Assembly: GCA_947495685.1 (NCBI GenBank)
Contig: CANLZY010000040.1
Span: 1-38,053, forward strand
Direction of reading: 5' to 3'
DNA length: 38,053 nt
Origin: an uncultured Tropicimonas sp.
GTDB lineage: Bacteria; Pseudomonadota; Alphaproteobacteria; Rhodobacterales; Rhodobacteraceae
Shown here: positions 11,479-31,154 of the stretch, one piece after another
Layout: the number at the start of each line of letters is the position of its first letter
Numbering within the stretch: position 1 is the stretch's first letter
Notes under the pieces: model-generated
Seen by the model: the letters and a program-made list of their open reading frames with translations, nothing else
What the model was told of the DNA's origin: nothing
Databases searched by the model: none
Program-made: the position numbers and the translations under genes

Positions 11479-11648
11479 CTCGTCTACCCGTCACAGGTTG
11501 GCATCCCGTGCGATCTGCGCCGACCCGGCGCGCGCCGGCTGTGGATATCTGCGGTTGGGCATTTGACTGCGGCGTCCAGTTGCGCCACTCAGGGGGACCG
11601 GGAGGGCCTGCTTTGGGGCGGGCCGCGGCACAAGGGAGGTCGACCGTC

Positions 11649-12539
11649 TTGGCAACATTGGACGAAACAGCCGGCTATGTTCTGGCGCCCGATCCCGCCG
11701 ACGAGTCGCTGACTGCCCGGGTGCAAGGGGTGGATCAGGACGGCGCGCTGGTCGAAGTTCGGGTCGTCACGGAACGGCCGCTGACGATCTATCTGAACGC
11801 GCGCGAGATCGTGACCGCCATGACCATTGGCGATCATCCCGATCTGCTGGCCATCGGGTTCTTGCGCAACCAGGGGATGCTGTCCCCGGACGAGCCGATC
11901 ACGGGCGTCGACTATGACGACGATCTGCAGGTCGTGGTGGTCCGCACCGAACGGCAGACGGATTTCGAGGACAAGCTCCAGAAAAAGACCCGCACCAGCG
12001 GTTGCGCTGTGGGCACCGTCTTTGGCGACATGATGGACGGGTTGGAAGGGGTCACGATGCCGGCGGGGGAAGTCCGCACCAGCTGGCTCTATGCTCTGGC
12101 TCACCAGATCAACCGCACGCCCAGCCTGTACCTGGAGGCCGGTGCGATCCACGGCACGGTGCTCTGCCAGCAAGATCGCCCTCTTGTCTATATGGAGGAT
12201 GTCGGTCGTCACAATGCCGTCGACAAGGTCGCCGGATGGTTGTTCGTCAACGGCGTCGATCCGGCGGACAAGATCCTTTACACGACCGGGCGCCTGACCT
12301 CCGAGATGGTACTCAAGACGGCGCATATGGGCATTCCGGTGCTGGTGTCGCGATCCGGGTTCACCGCCTGGGGCGTGGAGCTGGCCCAGCAGTTGGGGAT
12401 GACGCTGATCGGGCGGATGCGCGGACGGCGGTTCACCTGCCTGAGTGGCGCGGAACGGCTGATCCGCGATGTCGATCCGTCCGAGATCGACGAGGATCGC
12501 AAGGCGCATCGGCGCAAGGGGGCGCAGTCCGATGGATAA
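11649..12539 (+). CDS. fdhD: Formate dehydrogenase accessory sulfurtransferase FdhD
   Basis: FdhD carries sulfur from a cysteine desulfurase to the bis-MGD cofactor of formate dehydrogenase, which is needed for activity. I start at the TTG at 11649 because GGGAGGT sits at the right distance upstream, giving 296 residues; upstream residues in this frame look non-coding. Family blocks seen are RPLTIYLNAREIVTAMTIGD, then TRTSGCAVGTVFGD, EAGAIHGTVLC, MEDVGRHNAVDKVAGW and TTGRLTSEMVLK. The loop cysteine equivalent to E. coli Cys121 is present, but the second cysteine of the E. coli CxxC pair is a glycine. Its stop overlaps the mobA start by 8 bases, so it heads a tight operon. Confidence 0.94.
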   Translation: MATLDETAGYVLAPDPADESLTARVQGVDQDGALVEVRVVTERPLTIYLNAREIVTAMTIGDHPDLLAIGFLRNQGMLSPDEPITGVDYDDDLQVVVVRTERQTDFEDKLQKKTRTSGCAVGTVFGDMMDGLEGVTMPAGEVRTSWLYALAHQINRTPSLYLEAGAIHGTVLCQQDRPLVYMEDVGRHNAVDKVAGWLFVNGVDPADKILYTTGRLTSEMVLKTAHMGIPVLVSRSGFTAWGVELAQQLGMTLIGRMRGRRFTCLSGAERLIRDVDPSEIDEDRKAHRRKGAQSDG

Positions 12540-13164
12540 AACTCCTGACGGCATTGCCGGGGTCATCCTTGCGGGTGGCCTGTCGCGCCGCATGGGCGGG
12601 GGGGACAAGTCGCTGCTGGACCTGTCGGGCGAACGCCTGCTGGACCGGGTGATCGCGCGCCTGCGCCCGCAGGCCGGCCCGCTTGCGCTGAACGCCAACG
12701 GCGATCCGGCACGGTTTGCCGGAGCCGGTCTGCCGGTGATCGCGGATTCCGTTGTCGGGCACCCCGGCCCTCTGGCCGGTGTTCTGGCCGGCATGGACTG
12801 GGCGGCGGGGCTGGGCGCCGACCGGATCGTGACGGTCGCGGCCGACACACCGTTCTTCCCGACCGACCTTGTGGCGCGCCTGTCGGGCGGGATCGGCGCG
12901 GCACCGATTGCACTGGCTGCCACACCGCATCCGACGCGAGGTTTGATGCGGCAACCGACCTTTGGCCTGTGGGACGTGGCGTTGCGCGACGACCTGCGTG
13001 CCGCCCTGGCCGCCGGCATACGCAAGGTCGTCATCTGGACCGACGGGCACGGCGCCGCCGATGTGGCGTTTGACGCGCCCGACGGTCGTGATCCGTTTTT
13101 CAACGTCAATACGCCGGAGGATCTGCTTGAGGCCCGGCAGCGCAGTCAGGAGGGCACCGCGTGA
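12532..13164 (+). CDS. mobA: Molybdenum cofactor guanylyltransferase
   Basis: MobA joins GMP from GTP to Mo-molybdopterin, a step toward the bis-MGD cofactor of formate dehydrogenases and nitrate reductases. The 210-residue protein has the nucleotidyltransferase start GVILAGGLSRRMGGGDKSLL (LAGG..RMG..DK), then GPLAGVLAGMDWA, the metal-binding VAADTPFFP, and near the end FFNVNTPEDL. The ATG lies inside the end of fdhD, and the stop overlaps the mobB GTG by four bases. The length matches the family (about 190-215). Confidence 0.93.
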   Translation: MDKTPDGIAGVILAGGLSRRMGGGDKSLLDLSGERLLDRVIARLRPQAGPLALNANGDPARFAGAGLPVIADSVVGHPGPLAGVLAGMDWAAGLGADRIVTVAADTPFFPTDLVARLSGGIGAAPIALAATPHPTRGLMRQPTFGLWDVALRDDLRAALAAGIRKVVIWTDGHGAADVAFDAPDGRDPFFNVNTPEDLLEARQRSQEGTA

Positions 13165-13670
13165 GGCTGTTTGGGGTGACCGGTTGGAAGAACGCCGGCA
13201 AGACGGGGCTGATGGAACGACTGGTCAGCGAGATGACGGGCCGGGGCCTGCGGATTTCCACCGTGAAACACGCTCATCACACCTTTGACGTCGACCAGCC
13301 CGGCAAGGACAGCCATCGCCACCGCGAAGCGGGGGCCGAACAGGTCTTGCTGGTGTCGCGCCGCCGCTGGGCATTGATGCACGAGTTGCGCGACACCGAA
13401 GAGCCGCCTCTGGCGGACCTGTTGGCGCAGCTTGCGCCGGTCGATCTGGTCCTGATCGAGGGCTACAAGCGCGACCGACACCCCAAGATCGAAGCCCACC
13501 GCGCCGAGACCGATCACCCGCTGATCGCGCTGGAAGACGACACCATTCGCGCCATCGCCAGCGATGCCCCCGACCGGATGCGCACCCGCCACCCGGACCA
13601 GACGGTGCTGGACCTCGATGACACGGCGGCGGTTGCCGATTTTGTTCTGGCCCAGGTCGGCCTGCGATGA
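13161..13670 (+). CDS. mobB: Molybdopterin-guanine dinucleotide biosynthesis adaptor MobB
   Basis: MobB is a small P-loop GTPase that assists MobA in guanylating the molybdenum cofactor. The 169-residue product begins MRLFGVTGWKNAGKTGLMER, in which GWKNAGKT is the Walker A loop. It continues with STVKHAHHTFDVDQPGKDSH and RHREAGAEQVLL, and has LVLIEGYKRDRHPKIE as the Walker B region, all typical of MobB. It starts with GTG overlapping the mobA stop (GTGA) and ends overlapping the moeA start (ATGA), so translation of the whole set is coupled. Confidence 0.93.
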   Translation: MRLFGVTGWKNAGKTGLMERLVSEMTGRGLRISTVKHAHHTFDVDQPGKDSHRHREAGAEQVLLVSRRRWALMHELRDTEEPPLADLLAQLAPVDLVLIEGYKRDRHPKIEAHRAETDHPLIALEDDTIRAIASDAPDRMRTRHPDQTVLDLDDTAAVADFVLAQVGLR

Positions 13671-14932
13671 TCACCCCGCCAAAGCTGCGCAATGATTGCT
13701 TTGCCCTGCCGCCGGGCGTCGACTGGATCCCGATGCAGGAGGCGATGGACCGGCTGCGGGGGGGGATCGCCCCGGTTGCGGCGTGCGAAACCGTGCCGCT
13801 GGCGCGGGCGACGGGGCGCATCCTTGCGCGGGACTCGGTGGCGCGCCGGGCCAACCCACCGGCGCCGAATTCGGCGGTCGATGGCTTTGGCTTTGCCGGC
13901 CCTGTTCCAGACGGTCCGGTCACGTTTCCGCTGGTCGAAGGGCGTGCGGCGGCTGGGGTTCCGTTCTCCGGCAGGGTACCGGCGGGCGCGGCGATCCGCA
14001 TCCTGACAGGGGCGATCCTGCCGGCGGGGGTCGATACGGTTGTGCTGCAAGAAGACATTGCAAGCGACGGAACCAGCATCGCCTTCAACGGGCCGCTCAA
14101 GGCAGGCGCCAACGCCCGGCGCGCGGGCGAAGACATGATCGAAGGCGCGGTGGCCCTTGCGGCCGGGCGTCGCTTGCAACCGCAGGATATCGCGCTTCTG
14201 GCATCGGTCGGCCTGTCGGAGGTCGCGGTATTCCGCCCGCTGCGCGTGGGGGTGCTTTCCAACGGCGACGAGGTCGTCCCGCCCGGAACCATCGCGCCCG
14301 AGCGGATGGGCCGTGGCGCGATCTATGACGCCAACCGGCCGATGTTGCTGGCGCAATTGGCGGCATGGGGCTTCGAGGCGGTGGATCTGGGCGTGGCGCC
14401 CGACAGCCTGAACGGGCTGCGGACCTGCCTCGACGGCGCGCGCACCAGGGTTGATGCGATTCTGTCCTCGGGCGGGGTTTCCACCGGCGACGAGGATCAC
14501 GTGTCGGCGCTGCTTCAGGCCGAGGGGCAGCTTGACACATGGCGGATTGCCATCAAACCCGGTCGCCCGCTGGCGCTTGGCCTGTGGCACGGTGTTCCGA
14601 TCTTCGGGTTGCCGGGCAACCCGGTCGCGGCCTTTGTCTGTACCCTGCTGTTTGCCCGGCCGGCGCTGGAAGTGCTCGCGGGCGGTGATTGGCAGGTGCC
14701 GCAGGGGTTTGTGGTGCCGGCCGCCTTCGAAAAACGCAAGAAGCCAGGCCGGGTCGAGCTTCTGCGGGCCCGGATGACGCCCGAAGGACAGGTCGAGGTC
14801 TTTGCCTCCGAAGGGTCCGGGCGGGTGTCGGGCCTGTCGTGGAGCACCGGGCTGGTGATGCTGGACGATTCCGAACGGCACGTCCGGCCGGGCGATCCGG
14901 TACGGTTTCTGCCCTATGCCGACTTTGCCTGA
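13667..14932 (+). CDS. moeA: Molybdopterin molybdenumtransferase MoeA
   Basis: MoeA inserts molybdate (or tungstate) into adenylylated molybdopterin. The 421-residue protein shows the usual domain order: an N-terminal linker with ATGRILARDSVARRANPPAP and NSAVDGFGFA, a beta domain with RILTGAILPAGVDTVVLQED, the MoCF fold with ILSSGGVSTGDEDHVSALLQ and FGLPGNPVAAFVCTLLFA, and a C-terminal beta barrel. The substrate-binding acidic and glycine residues are in place. It overlaps mobB by four bases. The tup genes follow after a 111-bp gap that may hold their own promoter. Confidence 0.95.
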   Translation: MITPPKLRNDCFALPPGVDWIPMQEAMDRLRGGIAPVAACETVPLARATGRILARDSVARRANPPAPNSAVDGFGFAGPVPDGPVTFPLVEGRAAAGVPFSGRVPAGAAIRILTGAILPAGVDTVVLQEDIASDGTSIAFNGPLKAGANARRAGEDMIEGAVALAAGRRLQPQDIALLASVGLSEVAVFRPLRVGVLSNGDEVVPPGTIAPERMGRGAIYDANRPMLLAQLAAWGFEAVDLGVAPDSLNGLRTCLDGARTRVDAILSSGGVSTGDEDHVSALLQAEGQLDTWRIAIKPGRPLALGLWHGVPIFGLPGNPVAAFVCTLLFARPALEVLAGGDWQVPQGFVVPAAFEKRKKPGRVELLRARMTPEGQVEVFASEGSGRVSGLSWSTGLVMLDDSERHVRPGDPVRFLPYADFA

Positions 14933-15043
14933 CGCCTCCGCGGCGGCGGGTATGTTTGGCGCACGGCACGTTTTTCCACTGGCCTTCCTCGGATGGCTCC
15001 CCTTAGGTTGGCGCCAATTCCTGTCCTGTTTGCAACGGTATCC

Positions 15044-15748
15044 ATGAACGAGCTTTTCGAAGGCCTGGCAGAGGCCGCCCGGCTGATCGTGACGCTGGAT
15101 TCCGACCTGATCGAGATTTCGCTGCGGTCCCTGCAGGTGACGGTCACTGCCGTCATCGTCGCGTCGGCAATCGGCTTGCCGCTGGGAGCGTGGCTTGCCG
15201 TGAACCGGTTTCGCCACCGGCGCACGGCCATCGCGACGCTGAACGCGCTGATGGGACTGCCGCCGGTGGTGGTCGGGCTGGTGGTTTACCTGCTGTTGTC
15301 GCGTTCCGGCCCGTTCGGCGTGCTGGGGCTGCTGTTCACGCCGACGGCAATGATCGTCGCCCAGATCATCATCCTGACTCCGCTGGTGGCATCGATTGCC
15401 CACCAGGCGATGCGGGACATGTGGGCCGAATATCATGACCTGCTGATTTCGCTGAACACGACCCGCTGGCAGCGGATCCGGGTGCTGATCTGGGATGGGC
15501 GGCGCGCGTTGCTGACGGCCTCGCTGGCGGGCTTTGGCCGCGGGATCGGCGAGGTCGGGGCGATCATGATCGTGGGTGGCAACATCGACCATTCCACCCG
15601 GGTCCTGACGACGGCCATCGCCTTGGAGACGGGCAAGGGCAATTTCGCGCTGGCGCTCGGGTTGGGTTTTGTCCTGATCGGGTTGGCGCTGTTGGTGAAC
15701 GGTTTGATCCACACCCTGTCGCATACCGAGGTCAGTGACCGATGGTAG
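15044..15748 (+). CDS. tupB: Tungstate ABC transporter permease TupB
   Basis: I start at the ATG at 15044 (MNELFEGLAEAARLIV), giving 234 residues; an in-frame start at 14993 adds 17 residues that lack a ribosome-binding site. The protein has five to six membrane helices and a cytoplasmic EAA loop, GFGRGIGEVGAIMIVGGNID, which couples to the ATPase. The helix-loop block RSLQVTVTAVIVASAIGLPL and the segment ALMGLPPVVVGLVVYLLLSR are typical of TupB/ModB-like permeases. With tupC and tupA it forms a complete oxyanion importer. The end overlaps tupC by seven bases. Confidence 0.88.
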   Translation: MNELFEGLAEAARLIVTLDSDLIEISLRSLQVTVTAVIVASAIGLPLGAWLAVNRFRHRRTAIATLNALMGLPPVVVGLVVYLLLSRSGPFGVLGLLFTPTAMIVAQIIILTPLVASIAHQAMRDMWAEYHDLLISLNTTRWQRIRVLIWDGRRALLTASLAGFGRGIGEVGAIMIVGGNIDHSTRVLTTAIALETGKGNFALALGLGFVLIGLALLVNGLIHTLSHTEVSDRW

Positions 15749-16461
15749 AGGCGCTGATCCTTCCGCTGAGGCTGTCTGGGGCCATGGTGCGTCGCAAGGG
15801 GCGCACCATCGTCGGGCCGGTGGATCATCAGGTGTCGGCCACCGGGTTCACCATTGTCATGGGGCCAAACGGCGCCGGCAAGACGACGTTGCTGCGGATG
15901 ATGCACGGGATGGAGCGCCTGTCGGCGGGGAGCGTGACCTGGCAGGTGCCCGAACGTGATGCCCGCGAGCGGCAGGCCTATGTCTTTCAGACCCCGGTCA
16001 TGATGCGGCGGTCGGTGCTGGACAATGTCGCCTATCCGCTGATCGTGCACGGCGTGCGCCCGAAACCCGCCCGTGCACGGGCGGGCGCCTGGCTGGAGCA
16101 GGTCGGCCTTTCAGGGTTGGCGGATCGGCAGGCGACGGTGCTGTCGGGCGGCGAGCGGCAAAAGCTTGCCCTGGCCCGCGCCCTGATCCGGGCACCGCAG
16201 ATCCTGTTTCTGGATGAACCCTGTGCCAGCCTTGACGGGCGGGCCATGCGCGACATCGAGGCGATTCTTCGCGCCGCACATGCTGCTGGCACCCGGATCG
16301 TCATGGCCACGCACGACATGGGGCAGGCCCGCCGGTTGGCGACCGAGGTCTTGTTCGTACATCACGGCGCCCTGCACGAGGTCGCTTCGGCCAGCACGTT
16401 CTTCGATCATGCATCCACGCCCGATGCACGGGCTTTTCTCAAGGGAGACATTCTGGAATGA
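15742..16461 (+). CDS. tupC: Tungstate ABC transporter ATP-binding protein TupC
   Basis: The 239-residue ATPase has Walker A MGPNGAGKTTLL (about residues 40-48), a Q-loop VFQTP, the signature LSGGERQKLALARAL, Walker B ILFLDEPCASLD, and the switch histidine in MATHD. It lacks the C-terminal oxyanion-sensing (TOBE) extension of ModC, consistent with TupC. It sits between the permease and the binding protein with overlaps on both sides (7 bases with tupB, 4 with tupA), so the three are made together. Confidence 0.9.
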   Translation: MVEALILPLRLSGAMVRRKGRTIVGPVDHQVSATGFTIVMGPNGAGKTTLLRMMHGMERLSAGSVTWQVPERDARERQAYVFQTPVMMRRSVLDNVAYPLIVHGVRPKPARARAGAWLEQVGLSGLADRQATVLSGGERQKLALARALIRAPQILFLDEPCASLDGRAMRDIEAILRAAHAAGTRIVMATHDMGQARRLATEVLFVHHGALHEVASASTFFDHASTPDARAFLKGDILE

Positions 16462-17267
16462 AACTGCGCTTTTTCGCGGCCGTTCTGGCTGTGGTCACGG
16501 CATCGCCCGTCTGGGCCGACAGCATGAAGATGGCGGTCACGACCTCCTTTCACAACTCTGGCCTGTCGGAGGTTCTGCTGCCCGAAATCAAGGCCGACCT
16601 GGATCTGGAGGTCCAGTTGCTGGTGGTGGGCACCGGTCAGGCGATCCGATTGGGCGAGGCCGGCGACGTGGATGCGATCCTGGTGCATTCCCTCCCTGCC
16701 GAGGAGGCCTTCGTGGCCAGTGGCAACGGCACCCACCGGACCGAGATCATGTACAATGATTTTGTGCTGATCGGTCCCGCGTCCGATCCGGCGGGCATTG
16801 CCACCGCACCAACCGCTGCCGCGGCGATGACGGCCATCGCGGAGACGGGCGCCGCCTTTGCCAGCCGGGGTGACGACAGCGGCACCCACAAGAAGGAACT
16901 GTCGCTCTGGACCGAGGCCGGGATCGACGCCGCACAGCGCCCGGTGGATTGGTACAAGGAGGCCGGGGCCGGCATGGGAGCAACGCTGAACACCGCCAGC
17001 GGGCTGAATGCCTATGTCATGTCGGACCGGGCGAGTTGGTTGAACTTCGGCAACAAGGGCGACCTGAAGCTGTTGTTCTCGGGCGATCCGGCGCTGTTCA
17101 ACCAATATGCCTATCTTCCGGTCAATCCGGCGGTGCACCCACACGTGAAGGCCGCCCCTGTCGCGCGGCTGGAGGCGTGGTTGGTGTCAGACCGCGCGAA
17201 AGGTCTGATCAACGGCTACACCCTGGAAGGTGAGCAATTGTTTACCTTCAACGCGAAGCCGAAATAG
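16458..17267 (+). CDS. tupA: Periplasmic tungstate-binding protein TupA
   Basis: The 269-residue product has a signal peptide (MKLRFFAAVLAVVTASPVWA, cleaved before DS). The mature part begins KMAVTTSFHNSGLSEVLLPE, the TTS..NSG oxyanion-binding start of the TupA/WtpA-like family. GTGQAIRLGEAGDVDAILVH and FASRGDDSGTHKKELSLW follow, the latter giving a second set of serine/threonine ligands. TupA binds tungstate far better than molybdate; this is family knowledge, and a molybdate preference here cannot be excluded from sequence. It is the last gene of the block, with a strong terminator 30 bp downstream. Confidence 0.9.
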   Translation: MKLRFFAAVLAVVTASPVWADSMKMAVTTSFHNSGLSEVLLPEIKADLDLEVQLLVVGTGQAIRLGEAGDVDAILVHSLPAEEAFVASGNGTHRTEIMYNDFVLIGPASDPAGIATAPTAAAAMTAIAETGAAFASRGDDSGTHKKELSLWTEAGIDAAQRPVDWYKEAGAGMGATLNTASGLNAYVMSDRASWLNFGNKGDLKLLFSGDPALFNQYAYLPVNPAVHPHVKAAPVARLEAWLVSDRAKGLINGYTLEGEQLFTFNAKPK

Positions 17268-22615: not shown

Positions 22616-24037
22616 TCAGTTGGCGCCGATGACCTCTCCGGCACCGGCGCGAAGCTCGGCAAGCACCGAGTCGTTGCCATCATAGTGATCCATCGCCGAG
22701 GCGTAAGCGGCCCTGGCCTTGTCCAGTCGTCCGAGGTTGGCATAGGAGCGCACCAGCATGATCCAGCCGTCCAGGTTGTCGGGGTTCTCTTCCAGCTTGG
22801 CGGCGAGCCCGGCGACCATGCCGTCGATCATGTCGTCCTGCTCCTCCTGACTCAGCGCTGTCACGGCTGCGATCTGGTCTGCGTCAGGTCCGGTAACGCC
22901 CGGGCCACGGTCCAGCATGTCCAGCCCGAGCGCCCGGGCGGTTTCGTCGAACATCTGCAACACGAAGGGCGCTGCCTTGAAGTGGCGTCGACCCTCGTTG
23001 ATCGCAGCCAGCGCGGCGTCGTTGTTGCCAAGACCGGATTGTTCCGTGGCCAGGGCGATCCAGGCCTTGTAATCGGTCGGATCTGCCGCGAGGACGGCGG
23101 TCAACTCCGCAACCCGATCAGCACTGGCTGCAGGGCTATCGGTGCCACCGGCGGCGGCAATTTCGGCCGGGGTCGCATCGGGCAGATAGCGGATGATATC
23201 GTGTTTCAGGAAGCGGGTCATGTTGATGATATCGCGCCGGATCATCGCCACCCAAGGCGCGTTTGGCGGGGAGTCCGCGTAGAGCCGGGACCAGTCCTGC
23301 ACAGCGCCTTCGAAGTCCTGGCTTTGGGCCTTTGCCAGCGCCACGTAGTAGCGGGCGCGGGAATCAGCTTGCTCCGCCAGAACCTGTTCGAACAGGATCC
23401 GGGCCGCGGGCGGCACCTTGTTGCCGTTGGCCAGCGTCATGGCCTCGGCGTAGGCCGACAGCACGGCTGGGTTGTTGTCGGACAATTCCACCGCGTGACG
23501 ATACGCATCCGCGGCCGAGGCGTTGTCGCCAATCTCGGCATAGGACCGCGCCAGCACCCACCAGGTTTCGAAATCATCGGGGGTTTCGGCGGCCGCGTCG
23601 ACCAGCAACTGGATGGAACTGTTGATGTCACCCGCCGCCGCCTGCTGCGTCAACATCTCGGTGCGGCGTGCGGCCAGCGGTTGGTCCGGTTCGTCGGGCG
23701 CGCCGAGGGCCGCATAGAGCCCGACCACCGCGGCGACTGACACGCCAGCAAGGCCCAGGCCCGCCGGCACGGACCGGTGGCCGACGAAGAACCCTTGATC
23801 GAGGTTCCTGGCTGCGGACAGGGCACGACGTTCGATCTCGTGCCGGGCGGCCTGGCATTCGCCGTCGCTGATCAGACCGGCCTGCCGGTCGCGTTCGACT
23901 TCGTCGAGCTGATCGCGATAGATCGAGATGCTCGAATCGGTGGCGTCCATTTCCATTTGGCCGCGCCGAAGGAACGGGCGGGCCATCCACAGGCCGGTCA
24001 GGGCGGCCAGGAGTGTGAGTATGCTCCAGAACAGCAT
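22616..24037 (-). CDS. ccmI: Cytochrome c biogenesis protein CcmI (heme lyase subunit)
   Basis: The 473-residue protein has the CcmI layout: an N-terminal membrane helix (FWSILTLLAALTGLWMARPF), a cytoplasmic loop with YRDQLDEVERDRQAGLISDG, a second helix (VPAGLGLAGVSVAAVVGLYA, about residues 90-110), and a long periplasmic TPR region. That region includes DDFETWWVLARSYAEIGDNA and later DNLDGWIMLVRSYANLGRLD. CcmI holds the apocytochrome for heme attachment by CcmF and CcmH. In the nitrite-reductase-specific system the TPR partner is NrfG. Its start overlaps the ccmH stop by one base. Confidence 0.92.
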   Translation of the reverse strand: MLFWSILTLLAALTGLWMARPFLRRGQMEMDATDSSISIYRDQLDEVERDRQAGLISDGECQAARHEIERRALSAARNLDQGFFVGHRSVPAGLGLAGVSVAAVVGLYAALGAPDEPDQPLAARRTEMLTQQAAAGDINSSIQLLVDAAAETPDDFETWWVLARSYAEIGDNASAADAYRHAVELSDNNPAVLSAYAEAMTLANGNKVPPAARILFEQVLAEQADSRARYYVALAKAQSQDFEGAVQDWSRLYADSPPNAPWVAMIRRDIINMTRFLKHDIIRYLPDATPAEIAAAGGTDSPAASADRVAELTAVLAADPTDYKAWIALATEQSGLGNNDAALAAINEGRRHFKAAPFVLQMFDETARALGLDMLDRGPGVTGPDADQIAAVTALSQEEQDDMIDGMVAGLAAKLEENPDNLDGWIMLVRSYANLGRLDKARAAYASAMDHYDGNDSVLAELRAGAGEVIGAN

Positions 24038-24513
24038 CAGCGTTCCTCCTGTCCGAGCAGGCGCCGGGCTTCGGCGTGATCGGCATCCGACATGTGTGAG
24101 AGGTCTTCAGGGGCGGTCTTGCGGCCGCGCAGATATGTCGAAAGCAACCCGCCGCCCAGCAACAGGAAGCCGATCGGTGCCAGCCACAACAGGTAGGTTT
24201 GCGCCGTGACCGGCGGATTCAGCAGGACGTAGTCGCCAAAACGGCTGCGGACGTATTCCAATACCTCGGCGTCGCTGTCGCCGGCATCCATCCGTTCGCG
24301 CACGACCACCCGCAGGTCCTTGGCCAACCCGGCGTTGGAGTCAAAGATCGACTGGTTCTGGCAGACAAGGCAGCGCAGTTCGCGGCCGATCTCGCGGGCG
24401 CGGGCCTCTCGGGCGGGGTCGGCAAACATCTCGTCAGCGTCGACGGCCAGAACAGGGGCCGCGAGGGTCATTGTCAGGGCGGCGAGTCCGGCGCACAGAA
24501 CGGAACGGATCAT
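24037..24513 (-). CDS. ccmH: Cytochrome c biogenesis thiol protein CcmH (CcmL/NrfF type)
   Basis: The 158-residue protein has a signal peptide, then the family motif LRCLVCQNQSIFDSNAGLAK with the LRCxxC redox pair that reduces or binds the apocytochrome CXXCH cysteines, and a C-terminal membrane helix (TYLLWLAPIGFLLLGGGLLS). I start at the ATG at 24513, giving a good signal peptide, rather than 19 residues upstream. It is the short form (also called CcmL, NrfF or Ccl2), with the TPR part encoded separately as ccmI. It lies between ccmF (10-bp gap) and ccmI (overlap). Confidence 0.93.
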   Translation of the reverse strand: MIRSVLCAGLAALTMTLAAPVLAVDADEMFADPAREARAREIGRELRCLVCQNQSIFDSNAGLAKDLRVVVRERMDAGDSDAEVLEYVRSRFGDYVLLNPPVTAQTYLLWLAPIGFLLLGGGLLSTYLRGRKTAPEDLSHMSDADHAEARRLLGQEER

Positions 24514-24523
24514 GGGGGCTCTC

Positions 24524-26503
24524 CTATTCCGCTGGTTGTGCGGCCATGCGGCGGCGGTCCGAGGGGGCACCGACCCGCAAGCGGCGGTCGAACAACGAGA
24601 TCAGCGCCGATAGCGTGATCAGCAACGCCCCCGTCCACATCCAGGGCACACCGGGGTTGTAGTAGTATCGGGTCACGTAGCCGCCCGTTCCATTCGGATC
24701 GCCCAGCACGCCGTAGAGATCGCCGTGCCAGAGGGTGACGATCCCGGCCTCGGTCGTCGGCTGACGCTCTACCGGGTACCAACGGCGCTCCGGCGCCAGG
24801 CTGGTCACGAACTTGCCGTTCCGAGTGACCTCCATCCGGGCGATCGACGTCTGGAAATTCGGCCCGGCGGTGTTGCGGATCTCGTGCAGGGAAAATTCGT
24901 AGGGGCCGACCTTGGTGGCGGTGCCGGGCTGCACGGTCTGGATGGCCTCGGCGCTCCACACCGACACGGCAATGACACCGGCCGCCGCGATCGCCATCCC
25001 GGCGTGGCCAAGATAGAGACCATAGGCCGATGCGGGCAGGCCGACGGCTCGGCGCAGAGCAATCGCCGGCCTCGCTTTCGGCAGGCCGATACGCCGTCCG
25101 AAATCGATCAGCGTGGCCACGGCGAGGAAGCTGGCAATGAAGACGCCCAGCAGGCCAACGGCATCCCACAACCCAAGCGAGACCGCGAGGATCAGCGTCA
25201 GGATCAGGGATATGGCGGCCGTCAGGCCGGTGCGGCGCAGCACCTCTGCCCGGTTCGCCCGCTTCCAGGCCATGAACGGCCCGATGCCGGCCGCCAGCAT
25301 GGCAAGCCCGAAGATCGGCAGGAAGGTCTTGTTGAAGTAGGGTGCCCCGACCGAGATCTTGGCGCCGTTCAGCAGTTCGAGGAACAACGGGTAGAGCGTG
25401 CCGACAAAGACCACGCCGCAAGCCGCTGCCAGCAGCAGGTTGTTCACCAGCAGGCCGGTTTCGCGCGAATAGATCGAGAACACCCCGCCATCCTGCAGTT
25501 TCGGAGCGCGCCACGCATAGAGCGTCAGCGCACCGCCGATTGCGATGCAGAGCAGCAGCAGGATAAAGGCGCCGCGCTCGGGATCCGTGGCAAAGGCATG
25601 AACCGAGGTCAGGATACCGGAGCGGACCAGGAAGGTGCCGATCAGGCTGAGCGAGAAGGTCAGGATCGCCAGCAGGATGGTCCACTTGAGCAGCGCGTTG
25701 CGCTTTTCGACGACAATGGCGGAATGCAGCAGGGCCGTTCCGACAAGCCATGGCATGAAGGAAGCGTTTTCCACCGGGTCCCAGAACCAGAACCCGCCCC
25801 ATCCAAGCTCGTAATACGCCCACCAGGACCCGAGCGCGATGCCTGCGGTCAGCCCCGACCAGGCGAACAAAACCCAGGGGCGCATCCAGCGCGCCCAGGC
25901 CGGATCGACCCGCCCGGTGATCAACGCCGCGACGGCAAAGGAGAAGGCGGTCGAGAACCCGACGTAGCCGAGGTAGAGCAGCGGCGGGTGAAAGGCGACG
26001 CCCGGGTCCTGCAACAGCGGGTTCATCCCCTCACCGTTGATCGGCGCATTGGCCAGACGTTCGAAGGGATTCGAGGTGACCAGGATGAAGAAATAGAAGC
26101 CGACCCCGATCATCGCCTGCACGGCCAGCACCGTGGCCCGGACGACCACCGGGATCACCCGGCCAAAGATCGAGATCAGCACTCCGAACAGCGACAGCAT
26201 CAGCACCCACAGCAGCATGGAGCCTTCGTGGTTGGCCCAGACGCCGCTGACCTTGTAGAGCATCGGCTTGGAAGAGTGCGAGTTCAGCGCCACGACCTTC
26301 AACGAGAAATCCGAGACGACAAAGGCCCAGGTGAGGGCGGCAAATGCCATTGCCGTACCGAAGAACTGCACCTGCGCGGCAGTATCGGCAACCTTCATGG
26401 CCGCCGGCGAGCCGTTTACCGTGCCCCACAGGGGCACGGTGGATTGTATCAGCGCGGCCACGAGAGCGAGGCACAGGGCGAAATGTCCGAGCTCGATGAT
26501 CAT
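24524..26503 (-). CDS. ccmF: Heme lyase membrane subunit CcmF
   Basis: The 659-residue polytopic protein (about 14-15 membrane helices) carries the WWD heme-handling domain GSWWAYYELGWGGFWFWDPV at residues 226-243, preceded by FHPPLLYLGYVG with a conserved histidine and SGVWANHEGSMLLW with another. CcmF/NrfE proteins transfer heme from CcmE to apocytochromes together with CcmH and CcmI. The ATG overlaps the stop of the FNR-type regulator gene (ATGA), so synthesis is coupled to that regulator. No ccmE, ccmG or ccmABCD is in the window; those must be elsewhere. The set F-H-I alone beside a multiheme cytochrome recalls nrfEFG. Confidence 0.95.
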   Translation of the reverse strand: MIIELGHFALCLALVAALIQSTVPLWGTVNGSPAAMKVADTAAQVQFFGTAMAFAALTWAFVVSDFSLKVVALNSHSSKPMLYKVSGVWANHEGSMLLWVLMLSLFGVLISIFGRVIPVVVRATVLAVQAMIGVGFYFFILVTSNPFERLANAPINGEGMNPLLQDPGVAFHPPLLYLGYVGFSTAFSFAVAALITGRVDPAWARWMRPWVLFAWSGLTAGIALGSWWAYYELGWGGFWFWDPVENASFMPWLVGTALLHSAIVVEKRNALLKWTILLAILTFSLSLIGTFLVRSGILTSVHAFATDPERGAFILLLLCIAIGGALTLYAWRAPKLQDGGVFSIYSRETGLLVNNLLLAAACGVVFVGTLYPLFLELLNGAKISVGAPYFNKTFLPIFGLAMLAAGIGPFMAWKRANRAEVLRRTGLTAAISLILTLILAVSLGLWDAVGLLGVFIASFLAVATLIDFGRRIGLPKARPAIALRRAVGLPASAYGLYLGHAGMAIAAAGVIAVSVWSAEAIQTVQPGTATKVGPYEFSLHEIRNTAGPNFQTSIARMEVTRNGKFVTSLAPERRWYPVERQPTTEAGIVTLWHGDLYGVLGDPNGTGGYVTRYYYNPGVPWMWTGALLITLSALISLFDRRLRVGAPSDRRRMAAQPAE

Positions 26504-27285
26504 GCCGGCACCTCGTGCAGGGCCCGCGGCCCGCCCCTGACAATTTGCGTCCGAAAGGATTCGGGTTCAGGGAGGTCAACCGGCAGGCGCCGCCCGACTT
26601 CTGCCAGATCGGGAATGATGTATTCGCTGGGCGACAGGAATTTCACCAGTTTCATCTTTTTCAGGCGGGTCAGAATCCGGCTCACGGTTTCGGCGTTCAG
26701 ACCAAGGTAATCCGCGATATCCTCGCGCGACATCGGCAGAGTCACAAGATGGCTCTGATCTTCGGTCGCACCCGCCCGCACGGCCATCTCGGCCAGAAAC
26801 AGCGTCACGCGCTCGACGCTGTCGAGGCGGCCGAGCGTGGTGATGTGGGCCTGGCTGCGCTCCAGCCGACGGTGGACAACGTGAAACGTCGCCGCCAGGA
26901 AAGCCGGGTCGGCCTGCAGTTCACGGGCCTGCGGCGACAGGTCGATTTCGCAGATCGAGCAGTCGGTGAGGGCCTCAAGCCAGTTCTGGCTGCCCGGGCC
27001 GGCCATCAGGCTGCAGACGGTTTCCCCGGCACCTTCGAGTGAAATAATCTGGCGCCGCCCGTCCTCGAAGGCAGTGCAGCTGGCCGCGGTTCCCGAGACG
27101 ACAATCCAGAATTTCAGGCAGGCATCCCCGTCGCTGCACTCCAGGCGGTCGCCGCGCACCAAGGCGTGATTCTGGCGAATGGCCTTGCTCGGGTCGCTGG
27201 GAAGGAAGGTGCACAACAGCCTTGCACAGCTGGCGCAATCCTGCGGTCTTCCGGTTTCCCGGAAGGCTTTCTGTTGGTTTGGCAT
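26500..27285 (-). CDS. FNR-type Crp-family regulator with N-terminal cysteine motif
   Basis: The 261-residue protein has an N-terminal cysteine cluster (C17, C20, C25 in DCASCARLLC), a cyclic-nucleotide-type beta roll, and a cysteine at 112 (SICEID) that aligns with E. coli FNR Cys122. Together these could hold an oxygen-sensitive [4Fe-4S] cluster, although the C20-to-C25 gap is x4 rather than x5. After a dimer helix comes the helix-turn-helix MSREDIADYLGLNAETVSRI (186-204), with Glu199, Ser202 and Arg203 equal to the FNR residues that read TTGAT. Extra cysteines at 50, 56, 70, 91 and 109 are unusual. It heads the ccmFHI operon and faces the multiheme cytochrome gene. Confidence 0.9.
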   Translation of the reverse strand: MPNQQKAFRETGRPQDCASCARLLCTFLPSDPSKAIRQNHALVRGDRLECSDGDACLKFWIVVSGTAASCTAFEDGRRQIISLEGAGETVCSLMAGPGSQNWLEALTDCSICEIDLSPQARELQADPAFLAATFHVVHRRLERSQAHITTLGRLDSVERVTLFLAEMAVRAGATEDQSHLVTLPMSREDIADYLGLNAETVSRILTRLKKMKLVKFLSPSEYIIPDLAEVGRRLPVDLPEPESFRTQIVRGGPRALHEVPA

Positions 27286-27324: not shown

Positions 27325-27366
27325 GTGATATACATGGATCTACCGCAGTGCCTTGTTTTGGATCAA
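27325..27366 (-). promoter_or_regulatory. FNR-type operator and promoter for the regulator-ccm operon
   Basis: TTGTT-N4-ATCAA at 27353-27366 matches the FNR consensus TTGAT-N4-ATCAA at 9 of 10 positions. On the minus strand a -10-like TATCAC lies at 27330-27325. This places the dyad centre (27359.5) near -41.5 from a start at about 27318, the class II activator position. The regulator start codon is at 27285. Autoregulation is inferred. Confidence 0.65.
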
Positions 27367-27497: not shown

Positions 27498-27533
27498 ACT
27501 CGGGATCGAGGACTCTAATCAAGGAGTAAACGC

Positions 27534-29903
27534 GTGAAACGGATGTTCCTGTTTCTGACACTCCTGCTGGGAAGCACGGCCTTTGCCGTCGCCCAGGAGG
27601 CGTCACAAGAAGCCGTTCCGATGGAAGTCAGTGCAGAACTGGCCGCCGAGAAGGGCTGTCTTTCCTGCCACGAAGGCATCGAGAAATTTACCCAGGGCGT
27701 CATGATGGAGACCATCGAGGCGACGGGTGAGGATTACGGCGACCCGGCTGGTTGTACGGTCTGCCACGGTGGAACCGTCGGCGGTACGACGGTCGAAGCC
27801 GCGCACGCGGGCACCCACACGGTGCTGGCCGAAGACGGCGGGCCGCACACCTTCTATCCGGATCCGGGAGCGGTGTGGATCGCCGACAAGTCCTGTGGGC
27901 AAAGCGCCTGCCACGAGGGATATCCCGAGCGCCTGATCAAGTCGCTGATGAACACCGAAGCCGGAAAGCTGCAGGGCAACCTGTGGTCCTGGGGAGTCAT
28001 CGACACCCATCAGGCGGTCTACGGCAACTATGACCTGGTTGACGAGGACGGGTCTGTTCCGATGGTGGGCACGGATGCCTACAAGGAATACATGACCGCC
28101 TTTGCCGAGTCGCATCCCGAGCAGATGCCCACCTCGATGGAGCAGGTGCCGGAAGTGGATGTCGATCAGATCTCCGAACACCCGAATCTGGCCGGTATCA
28201 CCTATTCGCGTCAGCAATGTCAGCGGTGTCACGTTGGCGTGAATGGTCGTGAAAAGCGCGGCGATTATCGCGGCGCCGGGTGCTCCTCCTGCCACGTTCC
28301 CTATTCGAACGAAGGCTTCTACGAGGGCGGCGACCCGACCATTTCCAAGGACCAACCGGGCAAGCTGCTGACTCACCAGCTTCAGGCCACGCGCAAGTCC
28401 AAGGTCACGCATGGCGACCTGGAATATTCCGGCATTCCGTCCGAGACCTGCAACTCCTGCCACAACCGCGGCAAGCGGATCGGCGTGAGCTATCAGGGTA
28501 TCATGGAGTTCCCCTACGGGTCCCCCTACTCGGCAACGGGTGGCAAGCAGCCCAAGCTGCACACCAAGAACTACCTGTTCATCAAGGACGACCTGCACCA
28601 CCAGATCCAGTCGCGCGACGGCAACCCCGCCGGCGGCATGCTCTGCCAGGACTGCCACACCACCGTGGATATGCACGGCGACGGCAACCTGCCCGGCACG
28701 ACTCTGGCCCAGGTGGAGATCGAATGTGAGGACTGTCATGGCACCGTTGGCCAATTCCCGTGGGAACTGCCGCTTGGCTATGGCGAAGAGTTCCAGCAGG
28801 AGATCGCCCAGGACGCCCGTGGCCTGACAGACGAGCTGATGGACGAGCAGTACTTTGCCGAAGTCTATGATGAAGAAGACGGGTATCTTCTGACCGCTCG
28901 CGGCAACCCGTTTGGCAACGTCGTCAAGAAGGGCTCCAAGGTCATCCTGCACTCGGCCTCCGGTCTCGACTTCGAGATCCCGGTGCTCAAGCAGATCGCG
29001 ATCGACGGCACATGGAAGTCGCCGAACGCCGAAGTGGCCATGATGTCGGTTGGCAAGCACATGGAATCCATGGAGTGCTATGCCTGTCACGCCGACTGGG
29101 CTCCGCAGTGCTACGGCTGCCACATCACCGTCGACTATTCCGAAGGCAAGACCGATGTTGACTGGATCAACAACGCCAATGCCCGCGAGGACAATGGTCT
29201 GACCGGCGATGCGCCGCTTGGTACCAATGGCCTGACAAGCGCCGGCAAGGTCTCCGAGACACGCTCCTACCTGCGTTGGGAAGAGCCGACCCTCGGGATC
29301 AACGGCGAAGGTCGCGTCAGTCCGCTGATGCCTGGCTGTCAGGTCATCACAACGGTCATCGACAAGGACGGCAACACGGTCGCCCATAACGAGACCTGGA
29401 TGACCCCGGATGCCGGCGGCACCAAGGGCCTGGACCATGCCGCTGTGCAACCGCACACCGCCGGTCGCCTCGCCCGGACCTGTGAAAGCTGTCACAACAA
29501 TCCCAAGGCCCTCGGCTACGGGATCAGCGGTGGCCGCTTCATGAAAGGGTACGAGGATGGATTCACGGTCGACCTGGAAACCGCGTTTGGCGAAACCATC
29601 CCGCAACAATCGCAACTGCAGTCGCAGCCGATTCCGTCGCTGGATCATGACCTGAGCCGGATCGTGACCGAGGACGGCAAGCAACTGGTGACGGTCGGCT
29701 CGCACTGGCCGCTGACCAGCCCGCTGCCGCAGGAGATGCGCGAAAAGATGGAGCGCACCGGACTGTGCATGGGCTGCCACCAGAACATGACGAACGAGGA
29801 ACTGTGGGCCAAGGTCAACACACCCGCGTTCGTCACCAACGAAGAGCACCAGGATGTGATGGATCAAGCCATCCACGCCCTGGCTGACAAGAAGTCCGAC
29901 TGA
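27534..29903 (+). CDS. Periplasmic dodecaheme-type multiheme cytochrome c
   Basis: The 789-residue protein starts at a GTG and has a signal peptide (MKRMFLFLTLLLGSTAFAVA). Eleven CXXCH heme-binding motifs have their first cysteines at residues 42, 74, 229, 250, 306, 371, 398, 515, 526, 650 and 745. A twelfth motif is CX4CH (CGQSACH, 121-127). Hemes cluster as 1-3, 4-8 and 9-12. The middle part (SYQGIMEFPYGSPYS and DCHTTVDMHGDGNLPG, then IECEDCHGTVGQFPWELPLG) recalls uncharacterised multiheme cytochromes. It does not match NrfA, HAO or OTR by any motif I can see, and it has no CXXCK site. There is no C-terminal membrane anchor, so it should be soluble in the periplasm. A transcription terminator follows. 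Confidence 0.93.
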   Translation: MKRMFLFLTLLLGSTAFAVAQEASQEAVPMEVSAELAAEKGCLSCHEGIEKFTQGVMMETIEATGEDYGDPAGCTVCHGGTVGGTTVEAAHAGTHTVLAEDGGPHTFYPDPGAVWIADKSCGQSACHEGYPERLIKSLMNTEAGKLQGNLWSWGVIDTHQAVYGNYDLVDEDGSVPMVGTDAYKEYMTAFAESHPEQMPTSMEQVPEVDVDQISEHPNLAGITYSRQQCQRCHVGVNGREKRGDYRGAGCSSCHVPYSNEGFYEGGDPTISKDQPGKLLTHQLQATRKSKVTHGDLEYSGIPSETCNSCHNRGKRIGVSYQGIMEFPYGSPYSATGGKQPKLHTKNYLFIKDDLHHQIQSRDGNPAGGMLCQDCHTTVDMHGDGNLPGTTLAQVEIECEDCHGTVGQFPWELPLGYGEEFQQEIAQDARGLTDELMDEQYFAEVYDEEDGYLLTARGNPFGNVVKKGSKVILHSASGLDFEIPVLKQIAIDGTWKSPNAEVAMMSVGKHMESMECYACHADWAPQCYGCHITVDYSEGKTDVDWINNANAREDNGLTGDAPLGTNGLTSAGKVSETRSYLRWEEPTLGINGEGRVSPLMPGCQVITTVIDKDGNTVAHNETWMTPDAGGTKGLDHAAVQPHTAGRLARTCESCHNNPKALGYGISGGRFMKGYEDGFTVDLETAFGETIPQQSQLQSQPIPSLDHDLSRIVTEDGKQLVTVGSHWPLTSPLPQEMREKMERTGLCMGCHQNMTNEELWAKVNTPAFVTNEEHQDVMDQAIHALADKKSD

Positions 29904-29969: not shown

Positions 29970-30323
29970 ATGCGCAAGACTTTGATTTGCACGATCGCCG
30001 CCATGGGGCTGGCCACGATCGCCTCCGCAGACTCCGCCGCTTACACGGCGAAGGAGTTGCTGTCGCCCTGCCAGGAAGCGGACAACGACGCCCGGTGGGG
30101 CGAGGCCGCCGAGACCGAATGCGAACAATACCTGATGGGATTCCTCGGCGCTTTGGCGGTCACGGGCGCTGGCGAGGGCTTCTGCCTGCCGGACCAGAAT
30201 GTCGCCGACGAAGTCCGCTGGGCCTACATGCGGTGGGTTCACGCCTCGTACAGCCAGCGCACCCAGCTTCCGGCGGCAGAAGCCGTCATGGGCACGCTCA
30301 AGGACAGCTTTGCCTGTAAGTAG
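29970..30323 (+). CDS. Secreted Rap1a/Tai-like small protein
   Basis: I start at the ATG at 29970, giving 117 residues with a signal peptide (MRKTLICTIAAMGLATIASA); the longer frame runs through the terminator. The mature part has the Rap1a-type pattern: YTAKELLSPC near the start, a cysteine in ETECEQYLMGFLGAL, then GEGFCLPD, and an end in LKDSFACK. That is four cysteines likely forming two disulfides. Rap1a/Tai4-fold proteins include immunity proteins to type VI amidase effectors, but many family members are not immunity proteins and no effector is seen here. Its stop TAG (30321-30323) is shared with the insertion site of the IS element downstream. Confidence 0.7.
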   Translation: MRKTLICTIAAMGLATIASADSAAYTAKELLSPCQEADNDARWGEAAETECEQYLMGFLGALAVTGAGEGFCLPDQNVADEVRWAYMRWVHASYSQRTQLPAAEAVMGTLKDSFACK

Positions 30324-31154
30324 GGTCAGGCCTCATAGCCAGAAAACGACTGTTGCCGCGAGAGCGATGGCCGAGAGGAAGACCTTTGGGCATCTGTCGT
30401 AGCGTGTAGCCACTCGTCGCCAGTCCTTGAGGCGACCGAACATGCACTCGATGCGATAGCGGCGCTTGTATCGCCGCTTGTCGTGTTTGATCTTTGTCTT
30501 GCGGGACGTCCTGGGCGGGATGCACGGGCGAATTTCCCTATCTGCCAGTGCGTTCCGGAACCAATCCGCATCGCGACCCCTGTCGGTGAGCAGCCAGACG
30601 GCATCCGGCAGGGAGCCAGGCATGGCCGCGGCGCCCTTGTCGTCGCTCGCCTGGCCGGCTGTGACGAAGAAGCGGATCGGACGCCCAGTGTGATCGGTGA
30701 CGGCGTGAAGTTTGGCGTTCATTCTCCCCTTCGTTCGACCGATCAGGCGTCCACGCCCCCCTGTTTCACGCTCAGGCTCGATGCCGTGCGGTGTGCCTTC
30801 AAATATGTCGCGTCGATCATGATGGTCCGGGGATCGTGAGCTTCTTCTGCCAGGCCGGTCATGATCCGGGCAAAGACACCCATTCGGCTCCAGCGGACCC
30901 AACGGTTGCAAAAGGGTCTTGTGAGGGCCGTGTTCGACGGGAGCATCACGCCACCTCAACCCATTGCGGTTGATGCATATAATCCCACTCAACACCCGCC
31001 GATCATCGACACGGGGACGCCCGTGAGACTTGGGAAAGAATGGGCGCAACCGCTCCATCTGTTCGTCGTTCAATCAGTATGGATCACTCATACCACACCT
31101 CCAGGGAGGTGCGATGAATCATGCTCCAAGATCTAAATCAATGGGTCCTGACCC
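30323..31154 (-). mobile_element. IS5-family (IS427-like) insertion sequence, 832 bp
   Basis: Terminal inverted repeats GGGTCAGGCCTCATAG (from 30323) and, read from the other end, GGGTCAGGACCCATTG (from 31154) agree at 13 of 16 positions. A TA dinucleotide flanks both ends (30321-30322 and 31155-31156) as the target duplication, typical of IS427-group elements. The single encoded transposase is damaged. Confidence 0.85.
30333..31091 (-). pseudogene. IS5-family transposase, damaged
   Basis: The original ATG is at 31091 behind GGAGGTG, but the sixth codon is TGA where TGG (Trp) is expected before LNDEQMERLRPFFPKSHGRP. The frame then holds until about 30915, where an extra T (CTTTTGC) shifts reading to NRWVRWSRMGVFARIM and IMIDATYLKAH, which includes the first catalytic Asp. 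At 30746-30751 a run of six G (seven expected) returns it to GRGRLIGRTKGRMNAKLHAV, and it continues through LLTDRGRDADWFRN and the Y-rich C-terminal block ending VVFWL. With one nonsense codon and two shifts it is unlikely to be active. Some IS427-group elements use programmed frameshifting, but that would not explain the TGA. Confidence 0.85.

Follow-up and report, generated by a model that had tools for sequence, protein, structure and literature searches.

The window analysed here, a stretch of 38,053 nucleotides from an uncultured Tropicimonas sp. (assembly GCA_947495685.1, contig CANLZY010000040.1), encodes a twelve-heme cytochrome at positions 27534–29903. From its sequence and gene neighbourhood we consider it fairly probable that this protein is a soluble cytochrome of the periplasm, induced under anaerobic conditions and belonging to an ExtM-like superfamily, and that its gene forms a conserved cassette with those of a regulator and a heme-lyase complex of its own. 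One of its heme motifs, at site 3, has the spacing CX4CH. Judged from the alignments this is a two-residue insertion at a site where most relatives have CXXCH, and the two forms have switched repeatedly; as part of the same reading, and held with the same confidence, the insertion would be a local, near-neutral or potential-tuning variation and not the hallmark of an active site. The conserved neighbourhood, with an FNR-type regulator, a second CcmF-CcmH-CcmI set and a Rap1a-like protein, carries no less information than this unusual motif. The features of the cytochrome gene are as follows.

27534–29903, + strand: twelve-heme periplasmic cytochrome, distant ExtM relative, 789 amino acids, signal peptide at about residues 1–20 (translation of the open reading frame (ORF), Pfam, NCBIfam)
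27521–27526, + strand: Shine-Dalgarno sequence AAGGAG ahead of the cytochrome gene, read from the sequence
27894–27914, + strand: heme site 3, CX4CH (CGQSACH), residues 121–127 (motif scan)
27903–27908, + strand: two extra codons AGC GCC (Ser-Ala) compared with CXXCH relatives (codon alignment)
29337–29339, + strand: codon of the non-motif cysteine C602 (PGCQVITT), invariant in 62/62 aligned sequences, not Cys in the ten-heme relative L105

The ORF starts with GTG and its product has a Sec-type N-terminus, with cleavage between VKRMFLFLTLLLGSTAFAVA and QE as read by eye and not by a predictor. A motif scan of the translation gave, from the N- to the C-terminus, CLSCH, CTVCH, CGQSACH, CQRCH, CSSCH, CNSCH, CQDCH, CEDCH, CYACH, CYGCH, CESCH and CMGCH, thus eleven CXXCH and one CX4CH motif, and no CXXCK within the 789 residues. 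The translation therefore agrees with a first-pass annotation of this DNA, which had described a 789-residue protein with a signal peptide, these eleven plus one motifs with CX4CH at residues 121–127, and no CXXCK site; its entry on this protein made no mention of the conserved gene neighbourhood. Every CH pair falls within a CXXCH or the CX4CH, and because the twelve motifs hold 24 of the 25 cysteines C602 is the lone one outside of them. In a codon alignment with seven relatives, one of them with CXXCH at site 3, the ratio of non-synonymous to synonymous substitution rates (dN/dS) was 0.085–0.132, and the gene is therefore under purifying selection.

A scan of species genomes confirmed 200 stretches encoding the cytochrome, and 80 of these 200 enter the counts of relatives given here. 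The 93 loci collected were reduced to 79 non-redundant rows by removing 6 presumed same-species copies (L003, L005–L009, a status inferred from matching coordinates and identities), 4 fragments (L046, L055, L065, L092), all but the first without site 3, and 4 identical rows (L020, L024, L025, L037); the fragment L046 begins at site 3 with CGQCH and would otherwise have been the 57th CXXCH row. Two of the loci show only 10 motifs, L004 being cut by the contig and L070 being split into two ORF pieces. Site 3 is CXXCH in 56 of the 79 rows and CX4CH in 23, the latter always as C[GS]Q[SA][AG]CH, and all other heme sites are CXXCH wherever they are covered. Both cysteines and the histidine of site 3 are kept in all 79 rows with neither another spacing nor a degenerate version, and no substitution of C121, C126 or H127 occurs among the 62 sequences aligned. 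The CX4CH carriers are the window, six Aliiruegeria/Tropicimonas rows and 16 rows with gammaproteobacterial record titles. This recurrence, the invariance of the three residues and the presence of CX4CH in 6/6 genomes of the genus having the gene argue that the motif is no product of chance, and the shared motif in the six genus genomes also rules out an artefact of one genome.

On trees built without the site-3 columns at least 7 changes of state are found at this site. In a quick tree of 79 rows the supported branches force 5 changes, and in a more careful tree of 76 rows (no mixture model; the long branches L053, L062 and L064 omitted) 6 are forced and 7 lie in the 5–95% bootstrap range; these trees do not tell the direction of change. 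With CXXCH in 56/79 rows and repeated switching, CX4CH is no defining feature of the protein. Among the columns listed (of 12), no residue covaried significantly with CX4CH by independent pairs, a test which with 6 pairs has almost no power. Four-residue spacers are known elsewhere: excerpts of the respective papers report heme on CXXXCH and CXXXXCH of MmcA, shown by mass (PMC11024163), and CXXXXCH present twice in cytochrome c3 (PMC10454114). These two share with the cytochrome described here the four-residue spacer in some heme motifs, but they are smaller heptaheme and tetraheme proteins with no relation shown, whereas the present family toggles the spacing at one site between close relatives. 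A site that alternates between CXXCH and CX4CH while the others stay CXXCH is a natural experiment on the tolerance of the System I heme lyase, and it also probes whether motif spacing alters heme properties.

Regarding its family, four generic multiheme models of Pfam matched the cytochrome above their cut-off (Cytochrome_C7, Cytochrome_C554, the MtrC-MtrF II/IV domain and Cytochrom_c3_2), and no NCBIfam model did. The NCBIfam model for ExtM (NF040943) matched with an E-value of 9.4e-64 and 215.7 bits, compared with an equivalog cut-off of 800 bits, and the match is colinear over profile positions 14–510 of 599. The models for ExtN and ExtO matched the cytochrome itself alone and weakly (65.8 and 65.2 bits vs 200), and NCBIfam gave 0 Ext-family matches among the 19 other ORFs scanned in the window, a count that covers the window and not the rest of the genome; ExtKL, ExtN, ExtO, ExtP and ExtI as neighbours are thus missing among these ORFs. 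In a sample of 398 Pseudomonadota genomes the ExtM profile found matches at E ≤ 0.001 in 27, all of them below 800 bits. The profile evidence makes the cytochrome a remote, colinear homologue of Geobacter ExtM outside of that equivalog, and colinear homology together with twelve heme motifs places it in an ExtM-like superfamily. ExtM (GSU2935), from the selenite/tellurite cluster extHIJKLMNOPQS of Geobacter, is described as a twelve-heme protein in an excerpt of PMC5877670, and Table 5 of PMC2825233, itself an excerpt of that paper, lists GSU2935 with 12 CXXCH. The two proteins are alike in heme number and in colinear homology by profile and differ in score and in their neighbours, the comparison being one by profile and not by direct alignment with the Geobacter sequence.

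No convincing relative was found among solved structures. With the cytochrome alone as query the only match was a thrombin chain at 0.56, and with a profile of 62 rows the best one was a cytochrome c555 trimer (7e-4 over 34 positions); neither was counted as a relative, and NrfA, HAO, OTR and MccA were not among these sequence matches. The protein had been described before as not being NrfA by motif, which holds: it has no CXXCK, it matched no NrfA profile, and the NrfB pentaheme model reached 22.9 bits vs 184. It also differs from MccA/SirA, which are octaheme proteins with a CX12–15CH-type site, by its 12 motifs. As for HAO and OTR, no such chain was matched, Foldseek with a model of mean pLDDT (predicted local distance difference test) 68.7 returned nothing, and the generic c554 match of Pfam lies over its cut-off. 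The profile search against multiheme families proposed in the first-pass annotation thus gave no close characterised family. Its description of the protein as uncharacterised stands insofar as there is no convincing solved relative, fold match or NCBIfam match above cut-off, and needs amendment insofar as the protein does have a family, as a distant relative of ExtM. Because of these missing matches and the missing CXXCK, a reductase or an electron hub, as had been suggested before, stays the best guess for its role. In the open-licence full-text literature (titles and beginnings of abstracts) no description of this cytochrome family or of a toggling heme site was among the matches listed.

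An AlphaFold2 model based on 62 sequences had a mean pLDDT of 68.7 and a predicted template modelling score (pTM) of 0.71, with low-confidence stretches around hemes 6–9, 11 and 12. Ten histidines outside the motifs are invariant in 62/62 rows, H473 is kept in 61/62 and H194 in 58/62, and many Arg, Tyr and Lys residues are invariant in the same sequences. In the ten-heme relative from genome G859 (L105), heme motifs 10 and 12 as well as C602, H343, H356 and H772 are all replaced. This joint loss hints at a link of C602 with heme 10 or 12, a single case from which no firm conclusion follows; among 32 genomes of its order G859 was the only one with a ten-heme relative.

The neighbourhood of the cytochrome gene consists of the following features.

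26500–27285, − strand: Crp/Fnr-type regulator, Cys-rich (Pfam cNMP_binding and Crp helix-turn-helix over cut-off)
27353–27366, no strand assigned: FNR-like box TTGTTTTGGATCAA in the divergent promoter region, 9/10 consensus positions
29970–30323, + strand: small secreted Rap1a-like protein directly 3' of the cytochrome gene, 117 amino acids from the ATG at 29970, start picked by eye
24524–26503, − strand: second CcmF/NrfE-type heme lyase gene of the genome (family scans, CcmF tree)
24037–24570, − strand: CcmH/NrfF-type thiol oxidoreductase (Pfam CcmH over cut-off, NCBIfam NrfF under cut-off)
22616–24037, − strand: CcmI-type protein with a tetratricopeptide repeat (TPR) domain (family scans), apocytochrome chaperone by analogy

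The regulator and the CcmF-CcmH-CcmI genes, the latter running from 26503 down to 22616, are thus divergent from the cytochrome gene, and the arrangement recurs in alphaproteobacterial relatives: CcmF in the locus and the regulator within 600 bases were found in 34/79 rows, a Rap1a-like ORF in 47/79. Minus-strand matches to the regulator were present in 37 loci, 36 of them with sequence (L050 gave none), and in 33 of these 36 a TTGAT-N4-ATCAA-like box agreeing in at least 8/10 positions lies upstream of the cytochrome gene, compared with about 2.9 expected from shuffles. Among 34 aligned regulators C17 is present in 27 and C20, C25 and C112 each in 32; by analogy with E. coli FNR, such cysteines could be the ligands of an iron-sulfur cluster. 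The Crp/Fnr domains, the N-terminal cysteines and the target box together suggest that the regulator is probably of the FNR type with an iron-sulfur cluster. It falls into no named NCBIfam family (FixK, FnrL, Fnr), the best match reaching 82.2 bits vs 300. In one relative (L044), where the ORFs were read and BLAST matches CcmF, CcmH and CcmI, the genes for the cytochrome, the regulator and the Rap1a-like protein adjoin CcmF-G-H-I-like genes, with ABC-transporter and CcmC-like genes upstream as read from the ORFs.

The genome of the window holds two CcmF genes. We compared 14 genomes, nine from the genus and five cytochrome-bearing ones from elsewhere in the family: CcmF genes number two or three in all 11 that encode the cytochrome and one in each of the 3 that do not. 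In the CcmF tree, in which NrfE and CcmF of E. coli are long branches of unsure placement, 16 of 20 CcmFs neighbouring the cytochrome group together (100*), every one of them from an alphaproteobacterial locus, and stand apart from housekeeping CcmF; twelve other CcmFs of these genomes form a separate clade (100*), and a third clade holds five. A CcmF gene lies within 4 kb of the cytochrome gene in 38/79 rows. With a second CcmF, distinct from the other one of the genome, and CcmH and CcmI beside the cytochrome, we infer a dedicated maturation set, which would parallel NrfEFG and SirEFG. FNR controls nrf. According to excerpts of the respective papers NrfEFG serves the maturation of NrfA (PMC12285233), SirEFG serves that of SirA, and CRP acts on sirA via SirR (both PMC6976685). 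In both systems, as here, a multiheme cytochrome stands beside a second CcmF-CcmH-CcmI-type set and a Crp/Fnr-type protein is involved; the cytochrome of the window differs in having neither CXXCK nor CX12–15CH, and in its family CcmF is also found beside relatives with CXXCH motifs only. The third CcmF clade comprises 5 of 17 non-cassette CcmFs. At L151 (7709–9730) and L152 (5812–7854) such a CcmF lies, as seen by eye, beside CcmG-/CcmI-like and two-component or metal-handling ORFs, and no ORF listed there has more than two CXXCH.

A candidate electron donor adjoins the cytochrome gene in four distinct loci, a NapC/NirT or TorC gene being recognised by family scans in L063 and L064 and by BLAST to these in L054 and L062, of which L054 is the same as L003. 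As a universal donor NapC/NirT is ruled out by three cytochrome-bearing genomes, as detailed below. A conserved class I cytochrome c partner was also considered and rejected: a first cluster of 6 loci proved to be scattered at unrelated positions, with adjacency in L045 alone.

Taken together these data suggest a model in which the divergent FNR-type regulator would bind the TTGAT-N4-ATCAA-like box and activate one or both arms as oxygen falls, as the conserved box and cysteines indicate. The apo-cytochrome would leave by Sec and would be matured by the neighbouring CcmF-CcmH-CcmI set with which it is co-inherited. All twelve sites would be filled, the lyase accepting CXXCH or CX4CH at heme 3, which conservation strongly suggests. 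Electrons might arrive from the quinol pool, the carrier being a NapC/NirT/TorC protein in some lineages and a different one in the rest, and might exit to a soluble acceptor or partner.

At site 3 Cys, Cys and His are kept throughout, whereas a site without heme should degenerate over time, and heme 3 is thus very probably bound in both forms. That site 3 could be empty or decaying in the CX4CH lineages, leaving eleven hemes there, might be argued as CX4CH is not the usual substrate of System I, but this is very unlikely given that all three residues persist in 23/23 CX4CH rows across the at least 7 state changes and no other spacing occurs in the 79 rows, that dN/dS is about 0.1, and that CXXXXCH holds heme in MmcA (excerpt of PMC11024163). 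It would be tempting to go further and to assume that the neighbouring CcmFHI exists specifically for loading CX4CH, since dedicated lyases for odd motifs are known from excerpts on NrfEFG (PMC12285233) and SirEFG (PMC6976685) and the cassette is present in each of the seven CX4CH rows from alphaproteobacteria (the window and L014–L019). We regard this as extremely improbable: a CcmF gene lies within 4 kb of 30/56 CXXCH cytochromes and of 8/23 with CX4CH, leaving 15/23 CX4CH rows with none that near, and this distribution argues strongly against CX4CH as the reason for the second set.

As to function, a reductase is our leading candidate, at slightly less than even confidence, and is more likely than a pure hub or a dehydrogenase. 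An electron hub or capacitor without chemistry of its own, which would store and shuttle electrons among periplasmic carriers at low oxygen, is possible but doubtful. The lack of a special site of the CXXCK or CX12–15CH type fits such a role, and so do the ten invariant and two nearly invariant non-motif histidines, which are sufficient for mostly bis-His hemes, and the neighbour clusters recognised by eye, among which no dedicated membrane partner recurs, NapC/NirT not being general; but the invariant extra cysteine and the many invariant Arg, Tyr and Lys residues suggest a catalytically constrained site, and with a regulator and a heme lyase set next to it the locus is similar to the reductase clusters nrf and sir as excerpted in PMC12285233 and PMC6976685. 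We consider it quite unlikely that the protein works in the direction of a dehydrogenase or oxidase, oxidising a reduced sulfur or nitrogen compound and passing electrons to cytochrome c or quinone. By their record titles several relatives derive from symbionts or from groups of sulfur oxidisers, and some genomes with the cytochrome have no NapC/NirT quinol dehydrogenase; the FNR-like box and the NapC/TorC neighbours in four loci, however, favour a reductive role. No Sox or Dsr genes were recognised by eye among the neighbour clusters, no search aimed at them having been made. A bolder version of the reductase idea, which we rate as rather unlikely, would see here an undescribed family of FNR-controlled twelve-heme terminal reductases that spread between mostly marine proteobacteria with a dedicated lyase, with C602 in the catalytic site (possibly for a sulfur or chalcogen oxyanion) and with heme 3 tuned by insertion or removal of two residues.

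Several results weigh against our favoured reading of an anaerobically induced ExtM-like cytochrome with its own regulator and lyase set. Foldseek against solved structures gave nothing at E ≤ 0.001 with a model of moderate confidence, and both cytochrome trees warn of long branches. The shuffles behind the FNR-box count preserve base composition alone, and the regulator stays under the NCBIfam cut-off for each of its seven matches. On the side of the lyase, CcmF is missing from the nearest 4 kb in 41/79 rows, in some because the contig breaks off, there is no enrichment of CcmF with CX4CH, and the neighbouring CcmFs of L044, L072, L081 and L085 do not belong to the cassette clade. G420, G515 and G629 carry the cytochrome gene and have no match to NapC/NirT (PF03264), so that NapC/NirT is not the general donor, and no substrate, membrane partner or active-site motif could be pinned down for the cytochrome.

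The gene was found in 4/385 genomes of the class, 6/295 of the family and 6/9 of the genus, the genome of the window being counted in each, and in a wider sample from the class of G692 in 1/48 genomes, G692 itself. Among the stretches listed the nearest relatives are from Aliiruegeria and Tropicimonas, followed by other Rhodobacterales, Roseibium and Kiloniellales; Shimia also occurs by record title, and many further relatives carry gammaproteobacterial titles, several of them symbionts. Some labels of metagenome-assembled genomes (Dehalococcoidia, Planctomycetota, Deinococcota) may stem from mis-binned contigs. The family is little studied, and its bearers are mostly marine bacteria. The cassette occurs patchily and the taxa in the tree are mixed, which suggests that it may move between lineages; a plasmid collection gave no match, which does not support carriage on plasmids. 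The cassette also suggests that Roseobacter-type bacteria and their relatives have an anaerobic electron-transfer function that has gone unrecognised, and it is testable because it is present in named strains (Aliiruegeria, Tropicimonas, Roseibium and Shimia, by record title).

Some further observations were made on the way. Of the 93 loci searched, 24 have a TPR protein beside the cytochrome and 22 a secreted protein (about 193 amino acids, no Pfam or NCBIfam match), both in the gammaproteobacterial group; these companion genes are seen at L067 12415–13911 and its equivalents. Ten ORFs of about 1300–1500 residues (L106–L115) match part of the ExtM profile and show eight to ten heme motifs in the approximately 1050 residues fetched of each, and they probably form a separate large multiheme family. 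In the window, an IS4/IS5-type transposase ORF (30333–31073, − strand) directly follows the Rap1a-like gene. Finally, a run of genes at 10183–17267 with Pfam matches to a CofD-like protein (10183–11478, − strand), FdhD, a MobA-like protein, MobB, MoeA and an ABC transporter with a PBP_like_2 binding protein looks like molybdenum/tungsten handling for formate dehydrogenase.

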